Shown here: in pieces, positions 4,327-60,478 of the stretch
Numbering within the stretch: the stretch's first letter is position 1
Layout: every line of letters starts with the position of its first letter
Assembly (NCBI RefSeq): GCF_023617305.1
Contig: NZ_CP081485.1
Location: 1,106,501 to 1,170,500 of the forward strand
Length of the DNA: 64,000 nt
Source: Methanobrevibacter sp. TLL-48-HuF1
GTDB lineage: Archaea; Methanobacteriota; Methanobacteria; Methanobacteriales; Methanobacteriaceae
Reading direction: 5' to 3'
The notes under the pieces: generated by a model
The model's input: only the letters and a program-made list of their open reading frames with translations
Told to the model about the DNA's origin: nothing
Database searches by the model: none
Made by a program: the position numbers and the translations under genes

Positions 4327-4818
4327 ATGGCTTTAGAGTATCATGTTATAAATGCATTAGTTGAAGATAAGCCGGGAGTATTGCAAAAAGTTGCTGGCCT
4401 ATTTACAAGAAGAGGTTTTAACATTGACAGTATTACAGTTGGAGAATCTGAAGTTGAAGGATTGGCCCGTATGATTATTACTGTTAAAGCAGACCAAAAA
4501 TTATTGGAGCAAGTTACAAAACAACTGAATAAGCTTGTAGATGTTATTAAAATAAAAGATATTACTGAAAATGCTGTTAAAAGAGAGTTATGTCTAGTTA
4601 AAGTTAATATTCCAAATGAAAAAGCTAGAGCAGAAATAATGCAGTATGTAAACATCTTTAGAGCTAAAATTGTAGATGTTTGTGAAGAAGCTTTAATTAT
4701 TGAAATTACCGGAGACATTGAAAAGATAGATGCATTCCTATCCCTTTTAAAAGGATATGGTATTAAAAAGATTTCACGTACTGGTCTTACTGCAATGTCC
4801 CGTGGATTTCGTTCATGA
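4327..4818 (+). CDS. ilvN: acetolactate synthase, small (regulatory) subunit
   Basis: This 163-residue protein binds the catalytic subunit and in this family mediates valine feedback control. The N-terminal ACT domain is clear (VINALVEDKPGVLQKVAGLF, with the conserved Arg-Gly-Phe-Asn-Ile-Asp segment next), followed by the ALS small-subunit C-terminal domain that ends in GLTAMSRG. A GGTGA ribosome site at 4317-4321 overlaps the end of ilvB, and the stop codon TGA overlaps the ATG of the carbonic anhydrase gene. The gene is therefore probably translationally coupled on both sides. Confidence 0.95.
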   Translation: MALEYHVINALVEDKPGVLQKVAGLFTRRGFNIDSITVGESEVEGLARMIITVKADQKLLEQVTKQLNKLVDVIKIKDITENAVKRELCLVKVNIPNEKARAEIMQYVNIFRAKIVDVCEEALIIEITGDIEKIDAFLSLLKGYGIKKISRTGLTAMSRGFRS

Positions 4819-5342
4819 TGATTCTTAATGAAATTTTGGAGAATAATAAGAAATTTGTAGATGAATTTGAAGGTGAGGAATTATCCCACCATCCCCAAAA
4901 AAAGTTAGCTATCTTAACTTGTATGGATTGTAGATTAACTGGATTTTTAGAACCAGCACTTGGTATTGGAAGGGGTGATGCTAAGATAATCAAAAATGCA
5001 GGAAATACAATTGTAGGTGAAGACGCTATTCGTTCAATAGCAGCTGCAATTTTCTCACTTGGTGCTGAGGAAGTTTTGGTTATTGGCCACACCGAATGTG
5101 GAATGGCTGGTTCTGACCCTGAAAAATTAAGAAATGCTATGATTGAGAGAGGAATCCCTCAAGAAGAAATTGACAAAGTTGATTTAAAATCTTGGATTGG
5201 CGGATTTGAAGATGAAGAGGAAAATGTTATAGACACAGTTGAAAAAATTAGAAATCATCCTCTTATTCCAGATGTACCAATTCATGGTCTTATGATGGAC
5301 ATTGTTACAGGTAAATTAGATGTTGTAGTAGATGATAGATAA
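4815..5342 (+). CDS. cab: beta-class carbonic anhydrase (Cab type)
   Basis: It interconverts CO2 and bicarbonate. The zinc ligands are visible as Cys36 in LTCMDCR and His92/Cys95 in GHTECG, with the Asp38-Arg40 dyad typical of beta carbonic anhydrases. The 175-residue length matches the short archaeal Cab group known from Methanothermobacter. The start ATG overlaps the ilvN stop (ATGA); a second in-frame ATG follows directly at 4818, so the start is uncertain by one codon. The location inside the acetolactate synthase operon is notable because that enzyme releases CO2; a metabolic link is my inference. Confidence 0.93.
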   Translation: MMILNEILENNKKFVDEFEGEELSHHPQKKLAILTCMDCRLTGFLEPALGIGRGDAKIIKNAGNTIVGEDAIRSIAAAIFSLGAEEVLVIGHTECGMAGSDPEKLRNAMIERGIPQEEIDKVDLKSWIGGFEDEEENVIDTVEKIRNHPLIPDVPIHGLMMDIVTGKLDVVVDDR

Positions 5343-5445
5343 ATTATTATCTACTTTTTTCTATTTTTAGCTATTTTAATTAAATATTTCACATCTAAAG
5401 CAATTTTTTAAGGTATTATCAATTTTTCTTTTGTTTAAACAGAAA

Positions 5446-5456
5446 TTATATATATT
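5446..5456 (+). promoter_or_regulatory. TATA-like box before stem-loop region
   Basis: TTATATATATT lies about 25 bases before the first stem-loop (5477). Archaeal transcription normally begins about 25 bases after the TATA box, so a transcript starting near 5475 would begin at the edge of that stem. This is seen spacing plus inference. Confidence 0.35.
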
Positions 5457-5476
5457 ATTATTGACTACTAATTAAT

Positions 5477-5594
5477 AAGCAAAGCCAAAGGTGTTTGCTT
5501 AATTTCGTATAGTTTGTAAGATGTGAAATCTTTTATTCGATTAAAATGCTGTTATTGGGGGATTATAAATATAAATTTATAATCATAACAGCAT
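5477..5594 (+). ncRNA. candidate structured RNA, element 1
   Basis: Three stems follow each other. AAGCAAA (5477-5483) pairs with TTTGCTT (5494-5500). AAGAT/ATCTT forms a small hairpin near 5518-5532, flanked by TTAATTTCG and TTATTCGATTAA. A long hairpin then has ATGCTGTTAT (5546-5555) paired with 5585-5594 and GATTATAAAT (5561-5570) paired with 5575-5584, with a one-sided bulge TGGGG (5556-5560). That is 20 perfect pairs broken by one bulge. T-rich sequence follows on the plus strand. I know no named RNA family with this form; strand and ends are inferred. Confidence 0.4.
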
Positions 5595-5638
5595 AGTTCT
5601 ATTTTTAATTATTTTTTTATAGTTATGATTATTATTTT

Positions 5639-5716
5639 GAGAATTAAATTGGAAAAAATGATTAGACTGTGCTAAATTGGGGATTTAGCAGAGATAAAAA
5701 ACCAATTTCAATTCTC
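5639..5716 (+). ncRNA. candidate structured RNA, element 2
   Basis: GAGAATTAAATTGG (5639-5652) pairs with 5702-5716 over 14 pairs with one bulged C. Inside it GCTAAAT (5671-5677) pairs with ATTTAGC (5683-5689) around the five-base loop TGGGG (5678-5682). The same TGGGG is the bulge of element 1. A TATA-like TTTTTATAG at about 5614-5622 is correctly placed for a start near 5640. No coding frame explains it. Confidence 0.4.
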
Positions 5717-5787
5717 TTAATCTATATTATTGATTATAATATTTTTTCAAGAATTAAAATTATGAAAAAACATATAATTATATGAAT

Positions 5788-5900
5788 TATAGATAAATTT
5801 CGATAAAACATAAGAGTACCTCCTTATTACTTAGTAATAAGAGAATATTGACATTTGTCAATGTTGTAATGCCTCTTATTCGATTAATTTTCAGTCTATA
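5788..5900 (+). ncRNA. candidate structured RNA, element 3 (branched)
   Basis: TATAGA (5788-5793) pairs with TCTATA (5895-5900). Within it ATAAGAG (5810-5816) pairs with CTCTTAT (5873-5879). That stem encloses two hairpins, CTTATTAC/GTAATAAG (5823-5841, eight pairs) and AATATTGAC/GTCAATGTT (5844-5865, nine pairs with one U-G). The result is a branched fold closed by two helices. The flanks TTTCGAT and TTATTCGATTAA repeat those of element 1. A T run follows at 5901. Confidence 0.42.
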
Positions 5901-6163
5901 TTTTTAAAATATAGTTGTATTTTAACTTATATAAATTTAAACGTATTTTAACCAGTTAAAATTACTTTTAATTGGAATATTGTTCTTATACTTTAAAATT
6001 AACCTGATTGGGAAATATTGATGTTAAATCAATAAGTTTTCTATAAAATAATAATTTTTCTTAACATTAGTTACTTTTATAAGTAGAAAAAATAATATAT
6101 ACTATTTGATATTTGAAGTACTTTAAATATCTCACATTTATCAATTATATAGGAGAAGTTAAA

Positions 6164-7156
6164 ATGAAAATGTATTACGAATCAGATGTAAATACTGATG
6201 CTCTTGAAGGTAAAACCGTAGCTGTAATGGGTTATGGAAGCCAAGGTAGAGCACAATCTAGAAACATGGCTGACAGTGGTGTCAATGTTATTGTTGGACT
6301 TAGGGAAAATGGTAATTCCTGGAATTTAGCTAAAGAAGATGGTATGACTGTAAAATCCTTCTCTGATGCAGCTAAAGAAGCAGATATCATCCACATTTTA
6401 CTTCCTGATGAAATTCAAGAAAAAATCTACAATGAACAAATTGCACCTTATGTTGAAGCTGGAAATACCATTTCCTTCTCTCACGGATACAACATTCACT
6501 TTGGTTTAATCAAACCTGATGAAGATGTTAACATTGTAATGTTTGCTCCTAAAGGACCAGGTTCTAGAGTAAGAACTACTTACTTAGACGGTTTTGGAAT
6601 TCCTGGATTAGTAGCTATTGAACAAGATGCTACTGGTGATGCATTACAACTTGCATTAGGTATGGCAAAAGCTTGTGGTTTCACTAAAGCTGGTGTAATT
6701 GAAACTACTTTTAAAGAAGAAACTGAAACTGATTTATTTGGTGAACAAGCTGTTTTATGTGGTGGACTTACTGCATTAATTAACGCTGGTTTCCAAACTT
6801 TAGTGGAAGCTGGTTACCAACCTGAAATTGCTTACTTTGAAACCTGTCACGAAGTAAAACTTATTGTTGACGATATTTATGAACATGGTTTCGGCGGAAT
6901 GTGGAAAGATGTAAGTAATACTGCAGAATATGGTGGATTAACCAGAAGGGACTATGTCATAACTGAAGAAACTAAAAAAGGTATGAAAAAAGTTTTATCT
7001 GAAATTCAAGACGGTACTTTCAAAAAACAATTTGCTGATGAAAATGCAACTGATGCAGCAAACTTAAAAGAAATGAGAGCTGCTGAAGACCAAGAAACTA
7101 TTGAAGTTGTTGGGGAAAGACTCAGAAAAGCTTGCGGATTACAAAAAGATGATTAA
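6164..7156 (+). CDS. ilvC: ketol-acid reductoisomerase
   Basis: It rearranges and reduces 2-acetolactate or 2-aceto-2-hydroxybutyrate with NAD(P)H, the second step of branched-chain amino acid synthesis. I start it at the ATG preceded by AGGAG (6151-6155), which gives 330 residues, the class I length; an in-frame ATG 51 bases upstream has no ribosome site. The Rossmann motif GYGSQGRAQ is near residue 21, and the Mg-binding segment [12 protein letters not shown] with the downstream [12 protein letters not shown] marks the C-terminal knotted domain. It has its own promoter region, separate from ilvBN. Confidence 0.97.
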
Positions 7157-14850: not shown

Positions 14851-14880
14851 ACCTTCTTTTTTGAAGGTTTTTAATCTTCT
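14849..14880 (+). terminator. hairpin terminator of thrS
   Basis: AAACCTTC (14849-14856) and GAAGGTTT (14863-14870) pair around six T, followed by T-rich sequence. Confidence 0.6.
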
Positions 14881-14940
14881 TTTTTTGAAAATAATTCTTT
14901 TAATCTCTCTTTTTAGTGTAAACTAATTAAAATATATTTT

Positions 14941-15085
14941 ATAGATATGTGGGGGGGATAAAATCCACATATCTGTTTATTTAAGTGATGTGTTTTGAAT
15001 ATATGGAGGTTTGATAATACATTCACGACTAAGTTTTTGAAATATGTTTTAATCACATATTCCAGATTATACTCTGTAAAGACTT
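14941..15085. ncRNA. candidate structured RNA before fae-hps
   Basis: AGATATGTGG (14943-14952) pairs perfectly with 14965-14974, and two more pairs extend it; the loop begins with five G and reads GGGGGATAAAAT. A second stem joins GTGATGTGT (14986-14994) to ATACATTCAC (15017-15026) with a bulged T. A third pairs GAAATATG (15039-15046) with CATATTCC (15056-15063) with one mismatch, and a small CAGA/TCTG hairpin follows. No protein gene fits. The rest of the gap to 15264 is AT-rich with TATA-like sequence and the GGAGG site of fae-hps. Confidence 0.35.
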
Positions 15086-15264
15086 GTATATATTTTTTAT
15101 CTTTTTTTAAGCTTTAATTATATGTTATAATGTTATTATTGTATTTTAAATCAAAATTTACACTTTTAAATCAATATTATCATAATCTGTTTTTTAGTAG
15201 TTAGCTTTATTTAATTAAAAAAATATAATTATATACTGTATATAATATACGGAGGAACTATTTA

Positions 15265-41475: not shown

Positions 41476-41839
41476 ATTAAATAGTTTATGTTTAATCATG
41501 TTTTTTAAATTTTAGCTATTTAATATATATTTTGTTTACTTATTATTATTTTTAATATTATTTTTTACACATAATTTAATTTTTATTTATTAATCCTATA
41601 CCTTTTTTTACTTATTTTTATTATTTGGTTTATTTTAATTTTGTTCATTTTTATATTTTAAAAATGGTTTTTTGTTTGATTAACTATTTGATTGATTATG
41701 TTATATTTTAATTTATTCATATTAAATAGGTAGTTTTATATAAGTTGTGTAAAAGATATATACATTGTCTAACTATTTGTTAGTTCAGTTTAAATTTTAA
41801 TGTGTTTAATTGTAATTTTTAGAAAAGGAGAAAAATCTC
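41476..41839 (+). promoter_or_regulatory. T-rich terminator zone and adhesin promoter/leader
   Basis: The first 200 bases are strongly T-rich on the plus strand and probably end the Mur ligase transcript. TTTATATAA at 41735-41743 is the likely TATA box of the adhesin, which gives a leader of about 75 bases. CTAAC/GTTAG (near 41770-41784) can form a small hairpin in the leader. AAAAGGAG at 41823-41830 is the ribosome site. No gene is seen here. Confidence 0.55.
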
Positions 41840-44800
41840 ATGAGTCTAAAAAAGAATATTGGTGTGTTAGTTCTTTTATTAGTACTTTTAAGCATGTCTG
41901 CAGTTTCTGCTGAAGATGTATCTGTTGATACTAATAATACTTATCAGGCACCAAATGAAATTCAAAAAGATTTCACATCTTTACAAACAGACATTGATAA
42001 TTCTCAAAATGTATTTGAGCTTAATTATGATGTCAAACATGGAGATGATGAAAAGGATAATTATGGTATTTCTATTACAAAGACTACTATAATTAACGGA
42101 AATGGTCATACAATTGATGCTAATGGTCATGGAAGTATTTTTTTAGTAAAAGATCCTTCTGTTACATTAACATTAAATGATTTGACTTTAATTAATGCAA
42201 ATCCTGTTTCTGATAGTTCAGGAATTGTAAGTAATGGTGGGGCTGTTTACTTTGATGGTTCTACTTTAATTGTAAATAATGTGAATTTCAAAAACAATAC
42301 TGTCTATAAATATGGTGGTGCAATTTACACTACTGGAACTTGTATTGTAGACAGTTCTGTTTTTGATGGAAATGATGTGCAATTCAGAAGTCAAAATATT
42401 GATAATGGAGGTGCAGCTATCTATGCAGATAATGGTGCTTCATTATTAATCTCTAATTCACAAATAATTAATAACCATAAAAACATGGTTATTCGTGACA
42501 ATAATGTTGGAGATCTTGTAGACGGTGTAGTAGTTGCAACAGGATATACTAAAATTTCAAAATCTTACTTTAGAAATAACAGCGGATGTTATGGTGGTGC
42601 TGTAACTTCTTTAGGTTACACTAGCGCAGGTAAAAATCAGATTATCATTGAAAATTCAGTATTTGATGCAAATAGAGCATTCCAAGGTGCAGCTGTAAAT
42701 GTTATAGGTTCTACTTTCAAAATATCCGGAACCAATTTCACCAACAATAAAGGTGTTGGTTATGGAAGTGATAATCCTAATGTAGGGGCTCTTCTTACAT
42801 GGTATGGTTGTGAAGGTACAATATCTGATTGTAATTTTATAAACAATACTGCAGAGAATGGTGCTGCTTATAGATTAGGTGATGATCATAATGGTGTTTC
42901 CAGTGCCAGTGTTGACAGCTGTACTTTTATAAACAATACTGCAACTAATCAAGGTGGTGCTATATATGAAGGTGGAAAAACAGGTAAAGCTACTTTAGAT
43001 ATTAAAAATTCCACATTTACCAATAACTCTGCAAAAAAAGAAGGTAGTGCTATTTATAATGGATATACTTTAAATATTGATGATGATACAACATTTACTA
43101 ATAATATGGTTTATATGTATTATACTGGTACTTTAAACATAAGTGAAATTAAAACCTTTACTGATTTGCAAAAAGCTATAAATATGGTTGAAGGTGATAT
43201 CCATTTAAGTTCTAATGTAACTATGTTAGATAGTGAAGCTGATAAGTTTGTAAATGGTATTGTTGTTGACCATCTTGTTAATCTTAAATGTGACGGTTTT
43301 ACTATTAATGCTAATAATTTAGGTAGGATATTTAATGTTACCTCAACAGCTGATAAATTAAATATATATAATGCTAATTTAATTAATGGTAATGCTGATA
43401 TTGGTGGTGCAATATATAATACTGGTTCTGTATATGCATACGACACTGCTTTTAAAGACAATACTGCTGCTACTATGGGTGGTGCAGTATTCAACAAAGG
43501 AACTTTAACTATTCAAAAATGTATAGTGGATAGTAATGATATAACCAAACGTACTTCTTCTGCCTCTGAAGATTATGGTGGTGCAGCTATCTATAACTGG
43601 TATGATAGTACATTATTTATTAAAAATAGTACTATTTCCAACAACCTTAAAAATTATAAAAATGGGGATTATATTGTTGGTGCTGTAACTTCTCTTGGTA
43701 AAACTACAATTTCACAAAATTCTTATTTTGTTAATAACTCTGGCCGTTGGGGTGGAGCTATTACTACTTCAGGCAGTTCATTACCTGGTAAGAAAGTTAA
43801 TGAATTAAGTATTAGTGAGTCTACATTTAGTAAAAATGGAGGATTATACGGTGCAGGTATATTTATAGAAGGTTCTAAGTTCACGATTACTAGTTGTGTA
43901 TTTGATAGCAATACTGCATCTGGTAAAGGTAATATGACTCCAAATGATAATAATGGAGCAGCTATTGAAGTAACCAATACTGATAAAGCTATTACTGGAA
44001 CTATAAGTAAAACTAAATTTACCAATAACAAAGCTCAATATGGTGGAGCTATTGATATTTGTGCAGGAACCATTAAAATTTTAAATTCAAAATTCATTAA
44101 TAACTCTGCTGATGTTGAAGGTGGAGCTATAGATATTAATGCTGCAAATGGTAACCCTAAAGTTACAATTTCCAGTTCTAATTTTATTAACAATAGTGCA
44201 CCAGTTGGTGGAGCTATATGCAATGTACATGATTTAACTGTTAAAGGATCTACTTTTATTGACAATACTCCTAATACTATATTTAATTGGGTAGGTGCTG
44301 GAGGTAATCTTAATTTAAATATAAAGACTTTTACTGATTTACAAAATGCTATTGGTCTTGTTACAGGTACTTTAACTCTTAATCAAAATGTTGCAATGAC
44401 TGCTAAAGAAGCAGCTAACTTTGTAAATGGTGTAGTTATTAATAAGAATATTGCTATTGATGGTAAAGGTCATACTATTGATGCTAAGAATTTAGGTAGG
44501 ATTTTCAATATTGGTGAAGGATTTACTGTTACTTTAACTAATGCTACTTTAATTAATGGTAAAGCTGATAAAGGTGGAGCTATTTATAATGATGGTTCTT
44601 TAACTTTAAGTGATGTTAAATTAAGTGATAACACTGCTGATAGTTATGGTGGTGCTGTATTCAACAATGGTAACTTAGTTGTTGGTAATTCTGTATTTGA
44701 TTCTAATGATATTGTTAATCGTGGTAGTGCTAGTGTTGATTATGGTGGTGCAGCGATTTATAACTGGTATGATGGTGTTTTAACTGTATCTGGTTCTAAT

Positions 44801-47800
44801 TTCACTAACAATATTAAGAATTATAAGAATGGTAATCGTTTAGTAGGTGCTATTGCTACTATTGGTGATGCTACAATTTCCGATTCTTACTTTGTTAATA
44901 ATACTGGCCGTTGGGGTGGAGCTATCTCAACTGCAGGTTATTTGCTTGCTGGTGATGATGTAAATACTTTAACTGTATCTGGTTCTACTTTTAAAGAAAA
45001 TGGTGGATTGTATGGTGCTGGTATTTTTGTAGCAGGGTCTGACTTTACAGTATCTGATTGTGTATTTGATAAAAACTCTGCATTTGGTAAAGGTGATATG
45101 ACTCCTAATAATAACAATGGAGCAGCTATTGTAGTAACTGATACTGGTAAAGATATTACTGGTATTATAACTGATTCTAACTTTACTAATAACAAAGCTC
45201 ATTTCAGTGGAGCTGTTGATATTTGTGAAGGAAAAATCACAATTAAAAATTCAATATTTGTAAATAACTCTGCGGAGTATTGTGCTGGAGCTATTGCTGT
45301 TGATTCACAGATAAATAAACCTGCTGTAGAAATAATTAATTCTAAATTTGATAGTAACTCTGCAGAATATGGTGGAGCTATATATAACTATTATAATTTA
45401 ACAGTTGTTGATTCAACATTTACTAACAATTCCAAAGATACCATTTATAATTTCAGAGTAGCAAATCTTGATTTAGGTATCAAAACTTTCACTGATTTGC
45501 AAAATGCTATTGGTCTTGTTAGAGGTACTTTGACTCTTGATTCTGATATTGCAATGACTGATGATGAAGCTGCTAACTTTAAAGATGGTGTAGTTATTAA
45601 TAAGAATATTGTTATTGACGGTAAAGGTCATACTATTGATGCTAAGAATTTAGGTAGGATTTTCAATATTGGTGAAGGATTTACTGTTACTTTAACTAAT
45701 GCTACTTTAATTAATGGTAAGGCGGATAAAGGTGGGGCTATTTATAATGATGGTTCTTTAACTTTAAGTGATGTTAAATTAAGTGATAATGCTGCTGATA
45801 GTTATGGTGGTGCTGTTTTCAACAATGGTCATTTAGTTGTTTCTGATTCTGTATTTGATTCTAATGATATTGTTAATCGTGGTAGTGCTAGTGTTGATTA
45901 TGGTGGTGCAGCGATTTATAACTGGTATGATGGTGTTTTAACTGTATCTGGTTCTAATTTCACTAACAATATTAAGAATTATAAGAATGGTGATCGTTTA
46001 GTTGGTGCTATTGCTACTATTGGTGATGCTACAATTTCCGATTCTTACTTTGTTAATAATGCTGGCCGTTGGGGTGGAGCTATCTCAACTGCAGGTTATT
46101 TGCTTGCTGGTGATGATGTAAATACTTTAACTGTATCTGGTTCTACTTTTAAAGAGAATGGTGGATTGTATGGTGCTGGTATTTTTGTAGCAGGGTCTGA
46201 CTTTACAGTATCTGATTGTGTATTTGATAAGAATACTGCATTTGGTAAAGGTGATATGACTCCTAATAATAACAATGGAGCAGCTATTGTAGTAACTGAT
46301 ACTGGTAAAGATATTACTGGTGCTATAACTGGTTCTAAATTTACTAATAATAAAGCTCAATATGGTGGAGCTATATATATTTGTGAGGGTAATATTGCAA
46401 TTTCTGATTCATTATTTGAAAATAACTCTGCTGATGTTGAAGGTGGAGCTATTGATATTGGTTCTGCAATAAATAATCCCGTAGTTACTATTGAAGATTC
46501 TAAATTTGTTAATAATACTCCACAAGCTATTCACAACTCTAAAGAATTGCATTTAGGTATTGAAACATTCACTGATTTGCAAAATGCTATAAATCTTGTT
46601 GATGGTATTTTAACTCTTGATTCTGATATTGCAATGACTGATGATGAAGCTGCTGGCTTTGTAGATGGTGTTGCTATTAATAAAAATATTAGAATTGATG
46701 GTAAAGGTCATACTATTAGTGCAGAAGATTTAGGTAGGATTTTCAGTATTGGTGAAGGATTTACTGTTACTTTAACTAATGCTACTTTAATTAATGGTAA
46801 GGCTACTGAAGGTGGGGCTATTTATAATGATGGTTCTTTAACTTTAAGTGATGTTAAATTAAGTGATAATGCTGCTGATAGTTATGGTGGTGCTGTTTTC
46901 AACAATGGTCATTTAGTTGTTTCTGATTCTGTATTTGATTCTAATGATATTGTTAATCGTGGTTCTGCTAGTGTTGATTATGGTGGTGCAGCGATTTATA
47001 ACTGGTATGATGGTGTTTTAACTGTATCTGGTTCTAATTTCACTAACAATATTAAGAATTATAAGAATGGTGATCGTTTAGTTGGTGCTATTGCTACTAT
47101 TGGTGATGCTACAATTTCCGATTCTTACTTTGTTAATAATGCTGGCCGTTGGGGTGGAGCTATTACTACTTCTGGCGCTTTGATTGCTGGTGATGATGTA
47201 AATACTTTAACTGTATCTGGTTCTACTTTTAAAGAGAATGGCGGATTGTATGGTGCAGGTATTTTTGTATGGGGATCTGACTTTATTGTGTCTGATTGTG
47301 TATTTGATAAGAATACTGCATCTGGTAAAGGTGATATGACTCCAAATAATAACAATGGAGCAGCTATTGAAGTAACTGATACTAATAAAGCTATTGCTGG
47401 AACTATTACTGGTTCTAAATTTATTAATAATAAAGCTCAGTATGGTGGAGCTATTGATATTTGTGAAGGTAACATTAAAATTACGGATTCAGAATTTGTT
47501 AATAACTCTGCTGATGTTGAAGGTGGAGCTATTGATATTAATACTGTTAATGGTAATCCTGAAGTTTCAATTTCTGGTTCTAAATTCATTAACAATAGCG
47601 CATCCTATGGTGGTGCTATAGTTAATGTGAAAGATTTAACTGTTAGAAACACTGAATTTGTTAACAATGCTCCTGATACTATATTTAATTATGTTGGCTT
47701 TGGAGGCAACCTTGATTTAGGTATTGAGAATTTCACTGATTTGCAAAATGCTATTGGTCTTGTTACCGGTACTTTAACTCTTAATCAAAATGTTGTAATG

Positions 47801-50800
47801 ACTGATGATGAAGCTGCTAACTTTGTAAATGGTGTAGTTATTAATAAGAATATTAGAATTGATGGTAAAGGTCATACTATTGATGCTAGGGATTTAGGTA
47901 GGATTTTCAGTATTGGTGAAGGATTTACTGTTACTTTAACTAATGCTACTTTAATTAATGGTAAAGCTGATAAGGGTGGAGCTATTTATAATGATGGTTC
48001 TTTAACTTTAAGTGATGTTAAATTAAGTGATAATGCTGCTGATAGTTATGGTGGTGCTGTTTTCAACAATGGTCATTTAGTTGTTTCTGATTCTGTATTT
48101 GATTCTAATGATATTGTTAATCGTGGTAGTGCTAGTGTTGATTATGGTGGTGCAGCGATTTATAATTGGAAAGAGGGCACATTAAAAGTAACTAATTCTA
48201 ATTTTACTAATAATATTAAGAATTATAAGAATGGTGATAATTTAGTTGGTGCTATTACTACTATTGGTAATGCTACTGTTAGTGGTTCTAACTTTGTTAA
48301 TAACTCTGGCCGTTGGGGTGGAGCTATTTCAGCTACTGGTGCTGAATTAAGGAAAAATTCAAGTACTTTAACAGTATCTAATACTATATTTAGGGATAAT
48401 GCTGCTTTATATGCTGGTGCTGTTTACATATGGGGATCTAATTACAATATAGCTGATTGTGTATTTGATAACAATACTGCGTTTGGTAAAGGTAATATGA
48501 CTCCAAATAATAATAATGGTGGTGCTCTTGTTGTATCTCAAGTAAGTAAATTCAATGAACCAATCACTGGTACTATTTCCGGTTCTAAATTTACTAATAA
48601 TAAAGCTCAATATGGTGGTGCTGCTTACTTCAATAAAGGATTTGTAACTATTACTGATTCCGTATTTGAAAATAACATAGCTACTGCTGAAGGTGGAGCT
48701 GTTGGCTTTTCTCGTGCAAGTGTTAAAGATTTAGTTGTATCAATAAATAATTCTTCATTTGTAGGTAATAAAGCACCTGTTGCTGGAGCTATTTTTACAA
48801 ATGTTGATTCAAAGATTACAAATTCAAACTTCACTAAAAACACAGCATCAAAAGGTGGAGCTGTTTTAAATGAGAATGGTGCAAAATTAACTGTTGATAA
48901 TTCTACATTTAAAGATAATGCTGCTGATAGTTATGGTGGTGCTGTATTAAACAATGGTGAATTGATTGTTACTAACTCTGTATTTGATGCTAATGATATT
49001 CTTAATCGTGGTTCTGCTGGTGTTGATCATGGTGGAGCTGCTATCTACAACTGGGAAAATGCTAAATTAGATATTTCAAAATCTAACTTTACAAACAATA
49101 TTAAAAACTATGTAAATGGTGATCGTTTAGTTGGTGCTGTAACTACTATTGGTAATGCTACTATTCGTGATTCTTACTTTGTTAATAACTCTGGCCGTTG
49201 GGGTGGAGCTTTAGCTGCAACTGGTGGAGTATCTGGCAGTGCTATAAACACTATTAGTGTAGATGGAACTAAATTTGTTAACAACACAGCTTTATATGGT
49301 GGAGCAATGTTTGTATGGGCATCTAATTACACTATTTCCAACTCTGTATTTGATAACAATTCAGCATTTGGTAAAGGTGATATGAGTCCTAATGACAATA
49401 ATGGTGGAGCACTTATAGTAACTCAGGATAATATACCTGTTTCAGGTAAAATAGTTAACTCTAATTTCACTAATAACAAAGCTCAATATGGTGGAGCTGC
49501 TTGGATTAATGAAGGAACTGTTGATATTGACGGTTCTAACTTTATAAACAACACAGCTACTACTACTGCTGGAGCTATTGGATTTGATTCACAATATACT
49601 AAAATTATCGCTACTGTTGATTCTTCTAAATTTGTAAACAATACTGCAGGTTCTTATGCTGGAGCTATTTATAATCTTGGTGATTTAACAGTTTCCGGTT
49701 CAGAATTTGACAATAATAAAGCACAATTTGGAGATATTATTTACAATAATAAGATTTACAATAAGGAAGGTATCTTAAGTATTAATGGTAACAAGTATAG
49801 TAATTACACTGAAAACAAAGCTCCAATTATTAATATTGGTGATATAAATACTATTTCAAGTACTGGTGGAATAATTGTAACTGTTTTAGATAATAAAACT
49901 GTAAATGTTTGTTACGGTGATGTTGTAACTTTACATGCTACTGTTGTTGCTGATGGTGTTCTTGTAGCTGGTCAAAAATTATTCTTCGTTATTGATAATG
50001 TTGAGTATATAGCAAATAGTTTAGGAAACGGTTCTTATATTGCATCTTATGAAGTAAAAGATGTTGGTAGTAAAACAGTCGGCATTGTTTATGACGGATC
50101 AGATGTTAATATTAAAACAGGTATGTTAAATATATCAAAAGCAACTCCTGATTTAACTGTCGGTGCATTAAATATTACTGTTGGAGATCTTGAAATAATT
50201 ACTGTAACCGGACCTAAAGATGCAACTGGTCTTATAACTTTAACTTTAAATGGTATTGATTATATATTGCCTATTTACAATGGTGAAGCTAAATTCTACT
50301 TCCAAGATTTAACTGCTGATGAGTATGAAGTATCTGCAAGTTATTCTGGTGATAATCATTATGTAGCTGCTGAAAATTCAACAGTCTTTAAAGTAGATAA
50401 AGTTTTAGCTAACTTAAAAATAAATGTTGAAGATATTACTTTTGGTGAAAACGGACTTGTTATAATCACTTTACCTTCTGATATTGACGGTTCAGTAGTT
50501 ACTGTTAATGTAAATGGTAAAATTTATCCTGTAACTGTTGAAAATGGATTTGCAAAACTTCCATTACGTGAATTAAATGCTGGTGATTATAATATATCTG
50601 CAGTATTTGCAGGTAATGATAAATACTTGCCTGGTGTAAGCAATGCTTTATTAACTGTATCTAAAGCTGACCCTGCATTAAATGTATTTATTTCAGATGT
50701 TGATTATGGTGGAATATTTAACATTAATGTTGCCTTAACTGGTGTGGATGCTATTGGTTTAAATGGTAATGTGATTGTCACCGTTAATAATAAAGATTAT

Positions 50801-53800
50801 ACTGTTGCAGTTACTGACGGTAAGGGTAATGCTACTGGTGTTAAATTAGCTGCTGGTACTTATGATTTCACTGCTAAATTCGCAGGTAGTGATAATTATA
50901 ATGATGTTAGTGATTCCGGTAATTTCAAAGTTAATAAGGTAGATTCTGCTATTTATGTTGCTGTTAATGATATTAAAGTTGGTGAAGATGCTGTTATTAC
51001 TGTTAAATTATTTGGTGATGCTACTGGTAGTGTAACTGTTAATGTAAATGGTAAAGATTATACTGAACCTGTTGTTAATGGTGTAGTTAATGTAAAAGTG
51101 TCTGGTCTTAAAGCTGATACTTATGATGTAGCTGTTAAATATTCTGGTGATAACAATTATAATACTGCAGTTGCTACTTCCAGCTTTACTGTGTCTAAAG
51201 TTGACTCTATCATGGATGTAACTGTTGATGACATTGTATTTGGTGAAGATTTAACTGTTGAAGCTGTTTTACCTGATGATGCTACTGGTGAGGTAGTTAT
51301 TGTTGTTGATGGAACTTCATATCCTGCAACTATTATCGATGGTAAAGCTACTGGAACTATTAAAGATTTAACTGCTGGTGATCATACTGTAGTTGTTAAA
51401 TATGCTGGTGATGATAAATACTCTGGTGTTGAAGTTACTGAAGTTGTTAATGTTGCTAAAGCAGATGCTGTTTTAGGTGTTGTTATTGCTGATGTTGATT
51501 ATGGCAATGGATTTGTTATTGAAGCTACTTTAACTGGTGTTAATAATGCTCCTTTATCTGGTAATGTGATTGTTACTGTTAATGGTAAAGAATATACTGT
51601 TGAAGTTGCTGCTGATGGTAAAGGTATTGCTACTGGTGATAAATTAGCTGCTGGATCTCATGGTTTTGCTGCTGTCTGGGCAGGAAATGATAATTACAAT
51701 ATTGTTACTGAAAACGGTGATTTCAAAGTTAATAAGGTAGATTCATCTATTGATGTTGCTGTTGATACTATTGACTTTGGTGAAGATGCTGTTATTAGTG
51801 TTAAATTAGCTGATGATGCTACTGGTGAAGTAGTTATTACTGTAAATGGTGAAGATTACACTACAGCTATTGAAAATGGTGAAGCTACTGTAACTGTATC
51901 TGATCTTAAAGCTGATGATTACACTGTTTCTGTTAAATATGCTGGTGACAACAATTATAATGGAGCAACTGGCAGTGCTGAATTTAGTGTACTTAAAATA
52001 ACTCCGGACATGGATGTAACTGTTGATGGTGCTGTATTTGGTGAAGATTTAACTGTTGTCGCTGTTTTACCTGCTGATGCTACTGGTGAAGTAGTTATTA
52101 CTGTTAATGGTAAAGATTACTCTGCAGTTATTGAAAATGGTGTAGCTAGTGCAACTGTTTCTGGTATTAACGCTGGTTATTACACTGTTTCTGTTAAATA
52201 TGCTGGTGATAACAATTATAATGCAGTTGATGTTACTAAAGGTGTTAATGTTGCTAAAGCAGATGCTGCTTTAAATGTTATTATTAATAATGTAGATTAT
52301 GGTAATGTATTTACTGTTAATGCTGTTTTAACTGGTGTTAATAATGCTCCTTTAGATACTAATATAATTGTAACAGTTAATGGTAAAAACTACATTGTAG
52401 CTATTGTTAATGGTAAAGGTACTTTCCATGCTGATAAATTAGCTGCTGGATCTTATAACTTCAATGCTAGATTCGCAGGAAGCAATAATTATAATGAAGT
52501 TAGTGATTCTGGTAAATTCAATGTTTATAAAGTAGATTCTGCTATTGATGTTGCTGTTAGTGACATTAATGTCGGCGAAGATGCTGTTATTAATGTTAAA
52601 TTAGCTGATGATGCTACTGGTGAAGTAGTTATTACTGTAAATGGTGAAGATTACACTGCAGCTATTAATAATGGTGTAGCTACTGTAACTGTATCTGATC
52701 TTAAAGCTGGTGATTACACTGTAGCTGTTAAATATGCTGGTGACAACAATTATAATGCTGTAGTTGCTACTTCCAGTTTTACTGTGTCTAAAGTTGATTC
52801 TACTATGGATGTAACTGTTGATGATATTGTATTTGGTGAAGATTTAACTGTTAATGCTGTTTTACCTGCTGATGCTACTGGTGAAGTAGTTATCACTGTT
52901 AATGGTAAAGATTATCATGTAGCTATTGATAATGGTAAAGCTATTAAAACTATTGGTGGTTTAGCTGCTGGTGATTACACTGTAGTTGTTAAATATGCTG
53001 GTGATGATAAATACTCTGGTGTTGAAGTTACTGGTGTTGTTAATGTTGCTAAAGCACAACCTGTTTTAGGTGTTGTTATTGCTGATGTTGATTATGGCAA
53101 TGGATTTGTTATTGAAGCTACCTTAACTGGTGTTAACAATGCTCCTTTAAATGGTAATGTGCTTGTTGCTGTTAATAGTAAATTCTATGTTGTGAATGTT
53201 ATTAATGGTAAAGGTACTTTAACTGGTGATAAATTAGCTGCGGATACTTATGGTTTTGCTGCTGCTTGGACAGGAAATAATAATTATGCTAGTGTTACTG
53301 AAAACGGTGATTTCAAAGTTAATAAAGTAGATTCTGCTATTGATGTTGCGGTTAGTGATATTAAAGTTGGGGAAGATGCTGTTATTAGTGTTAAATTAGC
53401 TAATGATGCTACTGGTGAAGTAATTATTACTGTAAATGGTGAAGATTACACAGCAGCTATTGAAAATGGTGTAGCTAGTGCAACTGTATCTGATCTTAAA
53501 GCTGGTGATTACACTGTAGCTGTTAAATATGCTGGTGACAACAATTATAATGGAGCAACTGGCAGTGCTGAATTTAGTGTATCTAAAATAACTTCTGATA
53601 TGGATGTAACTGTTAATAACATTGTATTTGGTGAAGATTTAATTGTTGATGCTGTTTTACCTGCTGATGCTACTGGTGAAGTAGTTATCACTGTTAATGG
53701 TAAAGATTATCATGTAGCTATTGATAATGGTGAAGCTGTACAAGTTGTTAAAGATTTAGCTGCTGGTGATTACACTGTAGTTGTTAAATATGCTGGTGAT

Positions 53801-56731
53801 GATAAATACGCTGGTGTTGAATTTACTGACGTTGTTAATGTTGCTAAAGCAGATGCTGCTTTAAATGTTATTATTAATAATGTAGATTATGGTAATGTAT
53901 TTACTGTTAATGCTGTTTTAACTGGTGTTAATAATGCTCCTTTAACCGGTGATGTGATTGTTACTGTTAATGGTAAAGATTACACTGTAAACGTCGTTAA
54001 TGGTAAAGGTAATGTTACTGGTGTTAAATTAGCTGCCGGATCTTATGATTTCACTGCTAAATTTGCAGGTGATAATAATTATAATGCAGTTAGTGATTCC
54101 GGTAAATTCAATGTTAATAAGGTAGATTCTGCTATTGATGTTGCTGTTAGTGACATTAAAGTTGGGGAAGATGCTGTTATTACTGTTAAATTACTTAGTG
54201 ATGCTACTGGTAATGTAACTGTTAATGTAAATGGTAAAAATTACAATGGAACTGTTATCAATGGTATGGCTAATGTAAAAGTGTCTGGTCTTAAAGCTGA
54301 TACTTATGATGTAGCTGTTAAATATTCTGGTGATAACAATTATAATGATGCAGTTGCTACTTCCAGCTTTACTGTGTCTAAAGTTGATCCTACTATGGAT
54401 GTAACTGTTGATGGCATTGTCTTTGGTGAAGATTTAACTGTTGAAGCTGTTTTACCTGCTGATGTTACTGGTAAAGTAGTTATTGTTGTTGATGGAACTC
54501 CATATACTGCAAATATTACTGATGGTAAAGCTACACAAGTTGTTAAAGATTTAACTGCTGGTTATCACACTGTTGGTGTCAAATACGGTGGTGATGATAA
54601 ATATAATGATGTTGTAGTTGACGGATTTGTAATTGTTGATAAAGCACAACCTGTTTTAGGTGTTGTTATTGCTGATGTAAATTACGGCAATGAATTTGCT
54701 ATTGAAGCTACCTTAACTGGTGTTAACAGTACTCCTTTAAATGGTAATGTAATTGTTACTGTTAATGGTAAATTCTATGTTGTGAATGTTACTGACGGTA
54801 AAGGTACTTTAACTGGTGTTAAATTAGCTGCAGGTACTTATGGATTTACTGCTGTTTGGGCAGGAAATGATAATTATGCTGCTGTTGATGAAAACGGTGA
54901 TTTCAAAGTTAATAAATTAAACTCAACTGTTGCAGTTAATGCTGATGACATTAAAGTTGGTGAAAATGTAACAGTAAGTGTAAATGTGCCTTCTGATGCT
55001 ACAGGTAATGTGATTGTTACTGTTGACGGTAAAGATTACACTGTAGCTATTGTAGATGGTAAAGCAGTTAAAACAATATCTGATCTTAAAGCAAACAATT
55101 ACACTGTAACTGTTAAATACGATGGAGACAACAATTATAATCCTAATCAGAACACAACCAAATTCACAGTATCCAAAATATCTGACTATAATATGAACAT
55201 TACTGTTCCTGGTGATGTTAAAGTTGGAGAAGATGCTGTTATTATAGTAAACGTTCCTAAAGACGCTTCAGGTAATGTTACTGTTAGTGTTGGTAAAGAT
55301 GTTTATAATGCTGTAATTAGTAATGGTTCTGCTAAAGTTGTTGTTTCTGGTTTAGGTGCTGGTGTTTATAATGTTTCAGCTACTTTCGCTGATGACAAAT
55401 ATGCACAAAACAAAGCTAATGCAACTGTAGTTGTATCTAAAGTAACTGATTATAACATGAATGTTTCTGTTCCTGAATTTAAAGAAGGAGTAAACTCTAC
55501 TATTAGTGTGGATTTACCTAAAGATGCAACTGGAACAGTTACTGTTGAAATCGACGGTAAAAAATACACTGCAAATGTAACTAACGGAACTGCAAAAGTA
55601 AATATTCCTGCTTTAAGTGCTGGAAATCATAATATCACTACAACTTACTCTGGTGATGCTAAATATGATTCCATGACTAAAAAAGGAAACATAACTGTAA
55701 TTCCAAATGTAAACTTAGATGTTAATGATGTTGTAATGTTTTACCATGACGGAACCCGTTTAGTTGCTAAATTAACAGATTCTCAAGGTAAACCAATAGT
55801 TAATGCTACTATATACTTCAATATTAATGGTGTGGACTATGCTAAATCTACTGATGATAACGGTACTGCATCTATGGGTCTTAATTTAGATTCCAATGTA
55901 TATGCAGTAACTGTAACTTATAATGGATCTGATATCTACAGTAAAATCTCCAAAAATGTTACTGTTACTATTAATCCAAGTATCATAGCTAAAGATTTAG
56001 TTAAAATGTATCAAAATGATACTAAATTCTATGCTAAATTCATTGGCAGTGATGGAAAAGCATTAGTTAACACTACTGTCAGATTTAACATTCACGGTGT
56101 ATTCTACAATAGAACTACTAATGATGATGGTATTGCTGAGTTAGGTATTATGTTAAGACCTGGAAATTATATTTTAACTGCTTACAACCCTGTAACTGGT
56201 GAAGAACAAGGATTTAACATAACCGTAAAATCATTAATCGTGCAAAATGACTTAACCAAATATTACTTAAACGCTTCCAAATTTGAGGCAACTATCTATG
56301 ATAAAAACGGAAGCTTAGCAGTAAACAAAACTGTAACTTTCAACATTCATGGAGTATTCTATACTAGAAGCACTGATGATAAAGGTGTAGTAAGTTTGGG
56401 AATCAGTTTAAGACCTGGAGAATATATCATTACAACAATATATGAAGGATTAGCTGTAGGTAACAATATAACTGTTTTACCTACTTTAGTTACCCGTGAC
56501 CTTAATATGACTCATGAAGATGGCAGTAACTTCACTGCACAAACACTAGATGGTCAAGGTAAACCATTAGCTAACCAAAATGTAACATTTAACATAAATG
56601 GTGTGTTCTATAATAAAGTCACTGATGAAAATGGTGTTGCTTCATTAGCTATGAGATTAATGAGTGGAAAATACATTATTACATCTTACTGGAATGATTT
56701 CCAAACAGGAAACACAATAATAATATCTTAA
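41840..56731 (+). CDS. giant secreted adhesin-like protein (4,963 residues)
   Basis: It begins with a signal peptide (residues 1-24, cleavage likely after SAVSA). Residues of about 60-2660 form right-handed parallel beta-helix repeats, rich in the motif GGAIYN...L.V..S.F.NN, in six large units. About 22 immunoglobulin-like domains follow (about 2680-4620), rich in the pattern DATG.V.VTVNGKDY. Four related domains of about 85 residues close the protein (4624-4963). There is no C-terminal membrane helix, so the last domains may hold it to the wall. Adhesin-like proteins of this build are typical of gut Methanobrevibacter and are thought to bind host or bacterial surfaces. The predicted product is very acidic and rich in Asn, Gly, Val and Asp. 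It is intact with no stop over 14.9 kb. Confidence 0.93.
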   Translation: MSLKKNIGVLVLLLVLLSMSAVSAEDVSVDTNNTYQAPNEIQKDFTSLQTDIDNSQNVFELNYDVKHGDDEKDNYGISITKTTIINGNGHTIDANGHGSIFLVKDPSVTLTLNDLTLINANPVSDSSGIVSNGGAVYFDGSTLIVNNVNFKNNTVYKYGGAIYTTGTCIVDSSVFDGNDVQFRSQNIDNGGAAIYADNGASLLISNSQIINNHKNMVIRDNNVGDLVDGVVVATGYTKISKSYFRNNSGCYGGAVTSLGYTSAGKNQIIIENSVFDANRAFQGAAVNVIGSTFKISGTNFTNNKGVGYGSDNPNVGALLTWYGCEGTISDCNFINNTAENGAAYRLGDDHNGVSSASVDSCTFINNTATNQGGAIYEGGKTGKATLDIKNSTFTNNSAKKEGSAIYNGYTLNIDDDTTFTNNMVYMYYTGTLNISEIKTFTDLQKAINMVEGDIHLSSNVTMLDSEADKFVNGIVVDHLVNLKCDGFTINANNLGRIFNVTSTADKLNIYNANLINGNADIGGAIYNTGSVYAYDTAFKDNTAATMGGAVFNKGTLTIQKCIVDSNDITKRTSSASEDYGGAAIYNWYDSTLFIKNSTISNNLKNYKNGDYIVGAVTSLGKTTISQNSYFVNNSGRWGGAITTSGSSLPGKKVNELSISESTFSKNGGLYGAGIFIEGSKFTITSCVFDSNTASGKGNMTPNDNNGAAIEVTNTDKAITGTISKTKFTNNKAQYGGAIDICAGTIKILNSKFINNSADVEGGAIDINAANGNPKVTISSSNFINNSAPVGGAICNVHDLTVKGSTFIDNTPNTIFNWVGAGGNLNLNIKTFTDLQNAIGLVTGTLTLNQNVAMTAKEAANFVNGVVINKNIAIDGKGHTIDAKNLGRIFNIGEGFTVTLTNATLINGKADKGGAIYNDGSLTLSDVKLSDNTADSYGGAVFNNGNLVVGNSVFDSNDIVNRGSASVDYGGAAIYNWYDGVLTVSGSNFTNNIKNYKNGNRLVGAIATIGDATISDSYFVNNTGRWGGAISTAGYLLAGDDVNTLTVSGSTFKENGGLYGAGIFVAGSDFTVSDCVFDKNSAFGKGDMTPNNNNGAAIVVTDTGKDITGIITDSNFTNNKAHFSGAVDICEGKITIKNSIFVNNSAEYCAGAIAVDSQINKPAVEIINSKFDSNSAEYGGAIYNYYNLTVVDSTFTNNSKDTIYNFRVANLDLGIKTFTDLQNAIGLVRGTLTLDSDIAMTDDEAANFKDGVVINKNIVIDGKGHTIDAKNLGRIFNIGEGFTVTLTNATLINGKADKGGAIYNDGSLTLSDVKLSDNAADSYGGAVFNNGHLVVSDSVFDSNDIVNRGSASVDYGGAAIYNWYDGVLTVSGSNFTNNIKNYKNGDRLVGAIATIGDATISDSYFVNNAGRWGGAISTAGYLLAGDDVNTLTVSGSTFKENGGLYGAGIFVAGSDFTVSDCVFDKNTAFGKGDMTPNNNNGAAIVVTDTGKDITGAITGSKFTNNKAQYGGAIYICEGNIAISDSLFENNSADVEGGAIDIGSAINNPVVTIEDSKFVNNTPQAIHNSKELHLGIETFTDLQNAINLVDGILTLDSDIAMTDDEAAGFVDGVAINKNIRIDGKGHTISAEDLGRIFSIGEGFTVTLTNATLINGKATEGGAIYNDGSLTLSDVKLSDNAADSYGGAVFNNGHLVVSDSVFDSNDIVNRGSASVDYGGAAIYNWYDGVLTVSGSNFTNNIKNYKNGDRLVGAIATIGDATISDSYFVNNAGRWGGAITTSGALIAGDDVNTLTVSGSTFKENGGLYGAGIFVWGSDFIVSDCVFDKNTASGKGDMTPNNNNGAAIEVTDTNKAIAGTITGSKFINNKAQYGGAIDICEGNIKITDSEFVNNSADVEGGAIDINTVNGNPEVSISGSKFINNSASYGGAIVNVKDLTVRNTEFVNNAPDTIFNYVGFGGNLDLGIENFTDLQNAIGLVTGTLTLNQNVVMTDDEAANFVNGVVINKNIRIDGKGHTIDARDLGRIFSIGEGFTVTLTNATLINGKADKGGAIYNDGSLTLSDVKLSDNAADSYGGAVFNNGHLVVSDSVFDSNDIVNRGSASVDYGGAAIYNWKEGTLKVTNSNFTNNIKNYKNGDNLVGAITTIGNATVSGSNFVNNSGRWGGAISATGAELRKNSSTLTVSNTIFRDNAALYAGAVYIWGSNYNIADCVFDNNTAFGKGNMTPNNNNGGALVVSQVSKFNEPITGTISGSKFTNNKAQYGGAAYFNKGFVTITDSVFENNIATAEGGAVGFSRASVKDLVVSINNSSFVGNKAPVAGAIFTNVDSKITNSNFTKNTASKGGAVLNENGAKLTVDNSTFKDNAADSYGGAVLNNGELIVTNSVFDANDILNRGSAGVDHGGAAIYNWENAKLDISKSNFTNNIKNYVNGDRLVGAVTTIGNATIRDSYFVNNSGRWGGALAATGGVSGSAINTISVDGTKFVNNTALYGGAMFVWASNYTISNSVFDNNSAFGKGDMSPNDNNGGALIVTQDNIPVSGKIVNSNFTNNKAQYGGAAWINEGTVDIDGSNFINNTATTTAGAIGFDSQYTKIIATVDSSKFVNNTAGSYAGAIYNLGDLTVSGSEFDNNKAQFGDIIYNNKIYNKEGILSINGNKYSNYTENKAPIINIGDINTISSTGGIIVTVLDNKTVNVCYGDVVTLHATVVADGVLVAGQKLFFVIDNVEYIANSLGNGSYIASYEVKDVGSKTVGIVYDGSDVNIKTGMLNISKATPDLTVGALNITVGDLEIITVTGPKDATGLITLTLNGIDYILPIYNGEAKFYFQDLTADEYEVSASYSGDNHYVAAENSTVFKVDKVLANLKINVEDITFGENGLVIITLPSDIDGSVVTVNVNGKIYPVTVENGFAKLPLRELNAGDYNISAVFAGNDKYLPGVSNALLTVSKADPALNVFISDVDYGGIFNINVALTGVDAIGLNGNVIVTVNNKDYTVAVTDGKGNATGVKLAAGTYDFTAKFAGSDNYNDVSDSGNFKVNKVDSAIYVAVNDIKVGEDAVITVKLFGDATGSVTVNVNGKDYTEPVVNGVVNVKVSGLKADTYDVAVKYSGDNNYNTAVATSSFTVSKVDSIMDVTVDDIVFGEDLTVEAVLPDDATGEVVIVVDGTSYPATIIDGKATGTIKDLTAGDHTVVVKYAGDDKYSGVEVTEVVNVAKADAVLGVVIADVDYGNGFVIEATLTGVNNAPLSGNVIVTVNGKEYTVEVAADGKGIATGDKLAAGSHGFAAVWAGNDNYNIVTENGDFKVNKVDSSIDVAVDTIDFGEDAVISVKLADDATGEVVITVNGEDYTTAIENGEATVTVSDLKADDYTVSVKYAGDNNYNGATGSAEFSVLKITPDMDVTVDGAVFGEDLTVVAVLPADATGEVVITVNGKDYSAVIENGVASATVSGINAGYYTVSVKYAGDNNYNAVDVTKGVNVAKADAALNVIINNVDYGNVFTVNAVLTGVNNAPLDTNIIVTVNGKNYIVAIVNGKGTFHADKLAAGSYNFNARFAGSNNYNEVSDSGKFNVYKVDSAIDVAVSDINVGEDAVINVKLADDATGEVVITVNGEDYTAAINNGVATVTVSDLKAGDYTVAVKYAGDNNYNAVVATSSFTVSKVDSTMDVTVDDIVFGEDLTVNAVLPADATGEVVITVNGKDYHVAIDNGKAIKTIGGLAAGDYTVVVKYAGDDKYSGVEVTGVVNVAKAQPVLGVVIADVDYGNGFVIEATLTGVNNAPLNGNVLVAVNSKFYVVNVINGKGTLTGDKLAADTYGFAAAWTGNNNYASVTENGDFKVNKVDSAIDVAVSDIKVGEDAVISVKLANDATGEVIITVNGEDYTAAIENGVASATVSDLKAGDYTVAVKYAGDNNYNGATGSAEFSVSKITSDMDVTVNNIVFGEDLIVDAVLPADATGEVVITVNGKDYHVAIDNGEAVQVVKDLAAGDYTVVVKYAGDDKYAGVEFTDVVNVAKADAALNVIINNVDYGNVFTVNAVLTGVNNAPLTGDVIVTVNGKDYTVNVVNGKGNVTGVKLAAGSYDFTAKFAGDNNYNAVSDSGKFNVNKVDSAIDVAVSDIKVGEDAVITVKLLSDATGNVTVNVNGKNYNGTVINGMANVKVSGLKADTYDVAVKYSGDNNYNDAVATSSFTVSKVDPTMDVTVDGIVFGEDLTVEAVLPADVTGKVVIVVDGTPYTANITDGKATQVVKDLTAGYHTVGVKYGGDDKYNDVVVDGFVIVDKAQPVLGVVIADVNYGNEFAIEATLTGVNSTPLNGNVIVTVNGKFYVVNVTDGKGTLTGVKLAAGTYGFTAVWAGNDNYAAVDENGDFKVNKLNSTVAVNADDIKVGENVTVSVNVPSDATGNVIVTVDGKDYTVAIVDGKAVKTISDLKANNYTVTVKYDGDNNYNPNQNTTKFTVSKISDYNMNITVPGDVKVGEDAVIIVNVPKDASGNVTVSVGKDVYNAVISNGSAKVVVSGLGAGVYNVSATFADDKYAQNKANATVVVSKVTDYNMNVSVPEFKEGVNSTISVDLPKDATGTVTVEIDGKKYTANVTNGTAKVNIPALSAGNHNITTTYSGDAKYDSMTKKGNITVIPNVNLDVNDVVMFYHDGTRLVAKLTDSQGKPIVNATIYFNINGVDYAKSTDDNGTASMGLNLDSNVYAVTVTYNGSDIYSKISKNVTVTINPSIIAKDLVKMYQNDTKFYAKFIGSDGKALVNTTVRFNIHGVFYNRTTNDDGIAELGIMLRPGNYILTAYNPVTGEEQGFNITVKSLIVQNDLTKYYLNASKFEATIYDKNGSLAVNKTVTFNIHGVFYTRSTDDKGVVSLGISLRPGEYIITTIYEGLAVGNNITVLPTLVTRDLNMTHEDGSNFTAQTLDGQGKPLANQNVTFNINGVFYNKVTDENGVASLAMRLMSGKYIITSYWNDFQTGNTIIIS
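43150..49860 (+). repeat. beta-helix tandem repeats of about 1.1 kb
   Basis: Units begin with a conserved FTDLQ.AI segment at about 43153, 44326, 45484, 46567 and 47727, spaced 1,173, 1,158, 1,083 and 1,160 bases; a sixth unit from about 48800 lacks that segment. DNA identity is very high in parts: bases 45781-46080 and 46861-47160 differ at only two positions in a direct comparison of the 300 bases. Confidence 0.9.
50666..55439 (+). repeat. higher-order repeat of three immunoglobulin-like domains
   Basis: Six units start at 50666, 51461, 52259, 53054, 53849 and 54644, that is every 795 bases (once 798), or 265 residues. Each holds three domains of about 88 residues. From the second unit on, the first domain alternates between two versions (LGVVIADVDYGN and LNVIINNVDYGN), so a 1,590-base period is also visible. 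The third and fifth units are identical for at least 90 bases at their starts. Confidence 0.9.
55708..56731 (+). repeat. four C-terminal domain repeats of the adhesin
   Basis: Four copies of about 85 residues share the pattern D-h-x-M/K-x-Y, then G-K-P-L-x-N-x-T-V-x-F-N-I-x-G-V-F-Y and R-P-G-x-Y-I. They differ from the preceding immunoglobulin-like domains. The location at the C-terminus of a protein without membrane anchor suggests wall attachment; this is inference. Confidence 0.75.
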
Positions 56732-60346: not shown

Positions 60347-60478
60347 TAAATTATCCTCCTAAGTATTTTTTATATAACATAGGAGTTATCAGCAATTTTT
60401 GCGGTTTGAAAATAAGTTTCTGGTGAACCCCATCACCAAGTTATTATTTTAAATATTTTATTATTTAAAACTTTCATC

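Follow-up and report, generated by a model that had tools for sequence, protein, structure and literature searches.

The carbonic anhydrase-ilvC gap and its elements

The window analysed here is a 64 kb stretch (positions 1106501-1170500) of the closed 1.95 Mb Methanobrevibacter genome G000. Its nearest relative in the comparison was the genome of a sister species, G024 (one contig of 1,853,160 bases), which showed 92.9% identity over 447 kb of sampled synteny. Within the window, a plus-strand ilvB-ilvN-CA cluster closes with the gene of a beta-type carbonic anhydrase (CA, 4815-5342), and ilvC follows on the same strand (start codon at 6164). The entire gap between them, 5343-6163, has an A+T content of 81% and contains no gene or open reading frame, which bears out an earlier note describing about 590 geneless bases (5446-6034) with a series of stem-loops. 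That note could name no RNA family for them. Indeed, Rfam gave zero matches in the gap at the gathering cut-off and likewise none at E≤5 across 5340-6170, and a known RNA family was rejected; at the sister locus, there were two sub-threshold chance matches. The only riboswitch in the window was a fluoride riboswitch (RF01734, 49.7 bits) at 60373-60446 on the minus strand.

The gap was the most structured among the 12 intergenic regions of the window: its whole fold had a z score of about -5 on both strands, and the remaining 11 regions ranged from -3.8 to +1.7. For 5446-6034, the z score was -4.79 on the plus as well as the minus strand, and 0 of 100 shuffles folded as well. Background values were obtained from 211 tiles, none longer than 200 bases, sampled over 464 kb of the genome (mean z -0.7, sd 1.4); the lowest z of all tiles was that of 5543-5742 (-4.8 plus, -7.6 minus). 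Non-random structure was confined to ca. 5476-5894 (ca. 420 bases; hereafter, the block). The 140 bases of 5895-6034 (z -1.1/-0.5) folded no better than shuffles, and the chance level extended up to 6060. The two strands were equally structured, and no strand-specific structural signal was found. This is a real structural feature of narrow range and no known family, for which an RNA function is a plausible candidate. The elements of the locus are listed below, with the strand where one applies.

5441-5453, plus strand: BRE/TATA-like element AGAAATTATATAT, giving a candidate start of transcription at ca. 5474-5477
5476-5501: hairpin H1 of 11 pairs, predicted by folding
5499-5545: variable segment R1, in which a locus-private repeat has one of its two copies, CTTTTATTCGATTAA (5530-5544)
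5546-5594: hairpin H2 of 20 pairs with one 5-base bulge, TGGGG (z -7 to -9)
5612-5618, plus strand: T7 run after H2, a possible terminator of a plus-strand RNA of ca. 140 nt
5639-5716: hairpin H3, made up of an outer stem of 14 pairs that includes one bulged base and an inner hairpin at 5671-5689
5720-5794: long imperfect hairpin H4, predicted by folding
5792-5894: branched fold I2 with two closing helices and hairpins at ca. 5820-5843 and 5844-5865
5873-5887: second copy of the private repeat, CTCTTATTCGATTAA, inside I2
5928-5939, minus strand: TATA-like site TAAATTTATATA, from which an antisense RNA would begin near 5903
6070-6099, plus strand: ilvC promoter region consisting of GTTACTTTTATAA (6070-6082) and AAAAATAATATA (6088-6099), conserved in the genus (score 10.8)

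Three structures picked out in the earlier note were confirmed: its 20-pair hairpin with one bulge is H2, its 14-pair stem is the outer stem of H3, and its branched fold closed by two helices is I2 with the two hairpins inside. Some of the at least nine strong inverted repeats that it counted lie within 5895-6034, where structure is at the level of chance. The T runs said to follow several elements do include the T7 run after H2, which is kept as ATTTTTTTATA in the sister genome, but T runs are ordinary for this gap because of its A+T content.

Two further regions of the window deserve mention. The gap between a threonyl-tRNA synthetase-like and a Fae-Hps-like gene (14851-15264, z to -3.8) carries a G run enclosed by the arms of a palindrome, AGATATGTGG..CCACATATCT, and has a large indel relative to the sister genome. 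A large repeated coding region at 41805-55372, probably consisting of adhesin-like genes, differs from that of the sister in the number and order of its units.

Promoter-like sites and the relation to ilvC

The matrix used to score promoter-like sites was derived from 170 upstream regions. The element at 5441-5453 scored 8.9, while the median for gene upstream regions was 8.2; H1 begins 20-25 bases further on, the sister genome carries the element unchanged, and the 64 kb window has a single exact GAAATTATATAT box. The best score in the block (11.7) was that of the minus-strand site at 5928-5939, where the DNA is also identical in the sister. At the best plus-strand score, ca. 0.4 sites are expected by chance, and neither the plus-strand nor the minus-strand site is beyond chance in such A+T-rich DNA; given this expectation, the minus-strand site makes a weak candidate promoter. 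TATA-like boxes had been proposed before the first two elements. The first of these stands as a good and conserved site, but the second, near 5620 and ca. 20 bases before 5639, was rejected, since the corresponding T7-ATA stretch of the sister lies ca. 50 bases before the element and the spacing therefore differs. The literature searched contained neither transcript data for the block nor a small-RNA study of this methanogen group.

Because branched-chain amino acid genes lie on both sides and on the same strand, the block could be a cis-regulatory leader of ilvC (an attenuator or riboswitch-like element) or the 3' region of the operon formed by ilvB, ilvN and the carbonic anhydrase gene. Against a leader, the whole genus conserves a promoter-like region 65-95 bases ahead of ilvC: GTTACTTTTATAA followed by a TATA-like box was found in species with the block and in species without it. 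This region lies 3' of the block, so that the block is unlikely to be a leader of ilvC, and the candidate was rejected on the strength of the conserved proximal region at 6070-6099. The view that the block is something beyond a simple leader is thus supported. Moreover, Rfam gave no riboswitch match, and a 3' region is disfavoured by the T-rich DNA found beyond the stop codon of the carbonic anhydrase gene in G000 and the relatives that were read. Taken as a whole, a role in cis is very improbable.

Divergence, fold retention and distribution in the genus

The flanking genes are 98% identical between the sisters (ca. 95% at third codon positions), and the rest of the locus is 97-98% identical. 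Within the gap, 5376-5450, 5651-5675, and 5901-6163 showed 92-100% identity, while ca. 5500-5550 and 5800-5900 fell to 44-65%; for the two variable segments, ca. 5500-5600 and 5790-5894, identity was only ca. 45-65%, and over the block at 5475-5893 it was 74%. Among the 62 intergenic regions with orthologues, the CA-ilvC gap had the most low-identity-island columns.

Retention of folding was evaluated against a null in which unchanged bases were fixed and differing bases were shuffled among the differing sites. With both strands and both directions tested, R1 with H2 folded better than this null (P=0.001 to 0.094), as did the branched fold I2 (P=0.001 to 0.026); most of these P values were under 0.05, and the whole element gave P of ca. 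0.00-0.05. When islands were cut automatically over the 464 kb sample, retention in both directions was seen only at the island at 5780; at the cut made at 5497, only one of the two directions reached significance. In the permutation test, H1, H3, and H4 showed no retention beyond chance, and their changes were neutral for folding. H1 is nearly identical in the sister, and the 5' side of the H3 internal loop is identical. Among the 18 shared pairs of H2, there were two double compensating changes (C-G to T-A and A-T to G-C) and one single change (A-T to G-T). The earlier note had looked to other genomes for compensating base changes; these are present in H2 (three) and H4 (one), but H3 has lost 6 of 28 pairs in the sister, and no pair of I2 is kept in register by the alignment. 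The shape and loop positions of I2 nevertheless agree between the sisters, an agreement reached by ca. 2% of shuffles. Drawn from two sequences, these observations provide evidence, though uneven, that folding has been retained.

The strongest rival to an RNA gene is a hot spot at the DNA level, in which polymerase template switching and slippage in hairpin-forming A+T-rich DNA rewrite short segments, and the stems, new palindromes, and short local repeats are by-products of mutation with no RNA function. The equal structure of both strands fits this explanation, as do the folding-neutral changes in H1, H3, and H4 and the direct repeat at 5530 and 5873, which is private to G000. In addition, the islands have diverged ca. 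10 times as much as third codon positions, more than drift allows, and low-identity islands occur in 11 other sampled intergenic regions. However, those other islands lack structure retention in both directions, the shape of I2 is kept with a different sequence, and exact two-sided changes in the middle of the H2 stem are less well explained by single template switches. We regard such a hot spot as a serious possibility, if on balance a doubtful one.

The private repeat offers a further view of the two divergent segments. In the whole G000 genome, CTYTTATTCGATTAA with at most one mismatch occurs only at 5530-5544 and 5873-5887, and it is absent from the sister, which has its own pair, CTYATAATTCAAG, at the corresponding places and one further exact copy elsewhere. 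When segments chosen by eye were compared, the similarity of R1 to I2 was significant within genomes (P≤0.0003) and not across genomes (P 0.35-0.7). With automatically chosen segments, the G000 pair gave P=0.002 among 44 pairs and the sister pair gave P=0.25. Because this automatic control weakened the eye-chosen test, concerted evolution of R1 and I2 is taken as no more than suggested. Sequence common within a species and not between species would be as expected if R1 and I2 recognise one fast-evolving partner. A structured RNA whose paralogous domains R1 and I2 diversify in concert, meeting one fast-evolving partner in a self/non-self or antitoxin-like manner, may be conceived on this basis, but we give it little credence.

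Sixty-seven genus genomes were searched for the block by DNA search, by two covariance models, and with the sister sequence. The block was found in G000 and G024 only, and 65 of the 67 had no recognisable copy; the covariance models, of H2 and H3, found only the two known copies. The comparison with the same gap of other Methanobrevibacter genomes, proposed in the earlier note, thus had a mixed outcome. Viral contigs searched with a conserved 20-mer and with ilvC gave no useful further alleles. Elsewhere in the genus, CA and ilvC are separated by 123-170 bases or by unrelated genes, which by their reading frames are a methylguanine-DNA methyltransferase-like frame, adhesin-like frames, and small proteins. 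No decayed copy of these gap genes was found in the G000 gap, and a decayed gene from the same gap of other species was therefore rejected. In another Methanobrevibacter genome (L012:5520-6535), the gap holds a 1016-base sequence without a long frame, the 3' part of which presumably resembles the end of an IS200/IS605-type transposon.

Within the genus, the gap is a site of insertion: many species have it short, and others have it filled with unrelated genes. This agrees with a second rival, in which the block is what is left of a non-autonomous mobile element, either MITE-like or a decayed insertion, that integrated in an ancestor of both sisters and is now decaying. The close relative G074 (CA 84% identical) likewise has a 161-base gap without the block, which aligns only with the ilvC-proximal part. 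MITE-like and palindromic elements resemble the block in their strand-equal hairpins and in insertion into a gap that is short in relatives, but the block is single copy, without clear terminal repeats and without a family. No further copies were found in its own genome or in 66 genus genomes, and a dispersed repeat family was rejected for this reason. Clear terminal repeats or a target duplication were not found: the block edges offer only weak A+T-rich arms as terminal inverted repeats, and the boundaries lie in T-rich DNA. A protein remnant was also not found in the gap, and decay would not preserve folding. A mobile remnant is accordingly unlikely.

Three intergenic regions of G000 outside the window are noted here. 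At 1293703-1294122 (L163:3203-3622), a region with z to -6.9 and no Rfam match has the GAAATTATATAT box preceding hairpins GAGCATGTAATGG..GCATGCTC and GATACAAAAAG..CTTTTTGTATT. It resembles the block in this box, in its strong hairpins, and in being restricted to the same two species of the genus, but differs in that its sequence is conserved (ca. 93%) and free of islands; it is a candidate lineage-specific RNA, cleaner than the CA-ilvC block. At 1200203-1200697 (L158:9703-10197), a series of stem-loops lies in a 495-base intergenic region, for which the sister and the rest of the genus gave short matches and no full match. At 1085222-1085835, many AACTTATAA/TTATAAGTT repeats stand directly before a ParA-like ATPase gene in what looks like a partition (centromere-like) site.

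A candidate lineage-restricted RNA gene

The reading that we prefer, tentatively and at somewhat less than even confidence, is that ca. 5441-5894 is an independent, young, lineage-restricted non-coding RNA gene derived from the common ancestor of both sisters. It is supported by the z scores of the fold, by fold retention in the two segments, by compensation in H2, and by the kept BRE/TATA-like element, as well as by the separate ilvC promoter region beyond the block and the lack of an open reading frame or decayed gene. Against it stand the lack of retention in H1, H3, and H4, the decay of H3, and the equality of the strands, as in DNA palindromes. Housekeeping RNAs of the same genome also speak against it: RNase P RNA (RF00373) and tRNA (RF00005) resemble the block in fold z and upstream TATA-like sites, but they are almost unchanged between the sisters, whereas the block is 74% identical and the other species of the genus lack it.

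Under this preferred reading, the gene would have originated in the gap, or reached it by insertion, in an ancestor that both sisters share. Transcription would most simply proceed on the plus strand from ca. 5475, and the RNA would end either at the T7 run (ca. 140 nt, comprising H1, R1, and H2) or near 5894 (ca. 420 nt, the whole set). The product may be a stable, structured RNA that acts in trans, its two variable stem-loop domains (R1 and I2) both contacting one fast-changing partner, either a protein or target RNAs reached via the loops. A common partner of this kind would explain stems that change in sequence yet keep their shape. The block resembles the lineage-specific small and intermediate non-coding RNAs of archaea in its intergenic position, lack of an open frame, narrow species range, promoter-like element before the first hairpin, and T run after a long hairpin. 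Unlike them, it has two segments that change unusually fast and shows no strand preference.

If transcribed, the block would be a species-group-specific RNA of the dominant human-gut methanogens (presumably M. smithii and M. intestini). It would also serve as a test case of RNA stems that keep their shape while evolving at a rate far above that of neutral DNA. If it gives no transcript, the block would clearly illustrate how hypervariability driven by hairpins can be mistaken for an RNA gene in genome scans.
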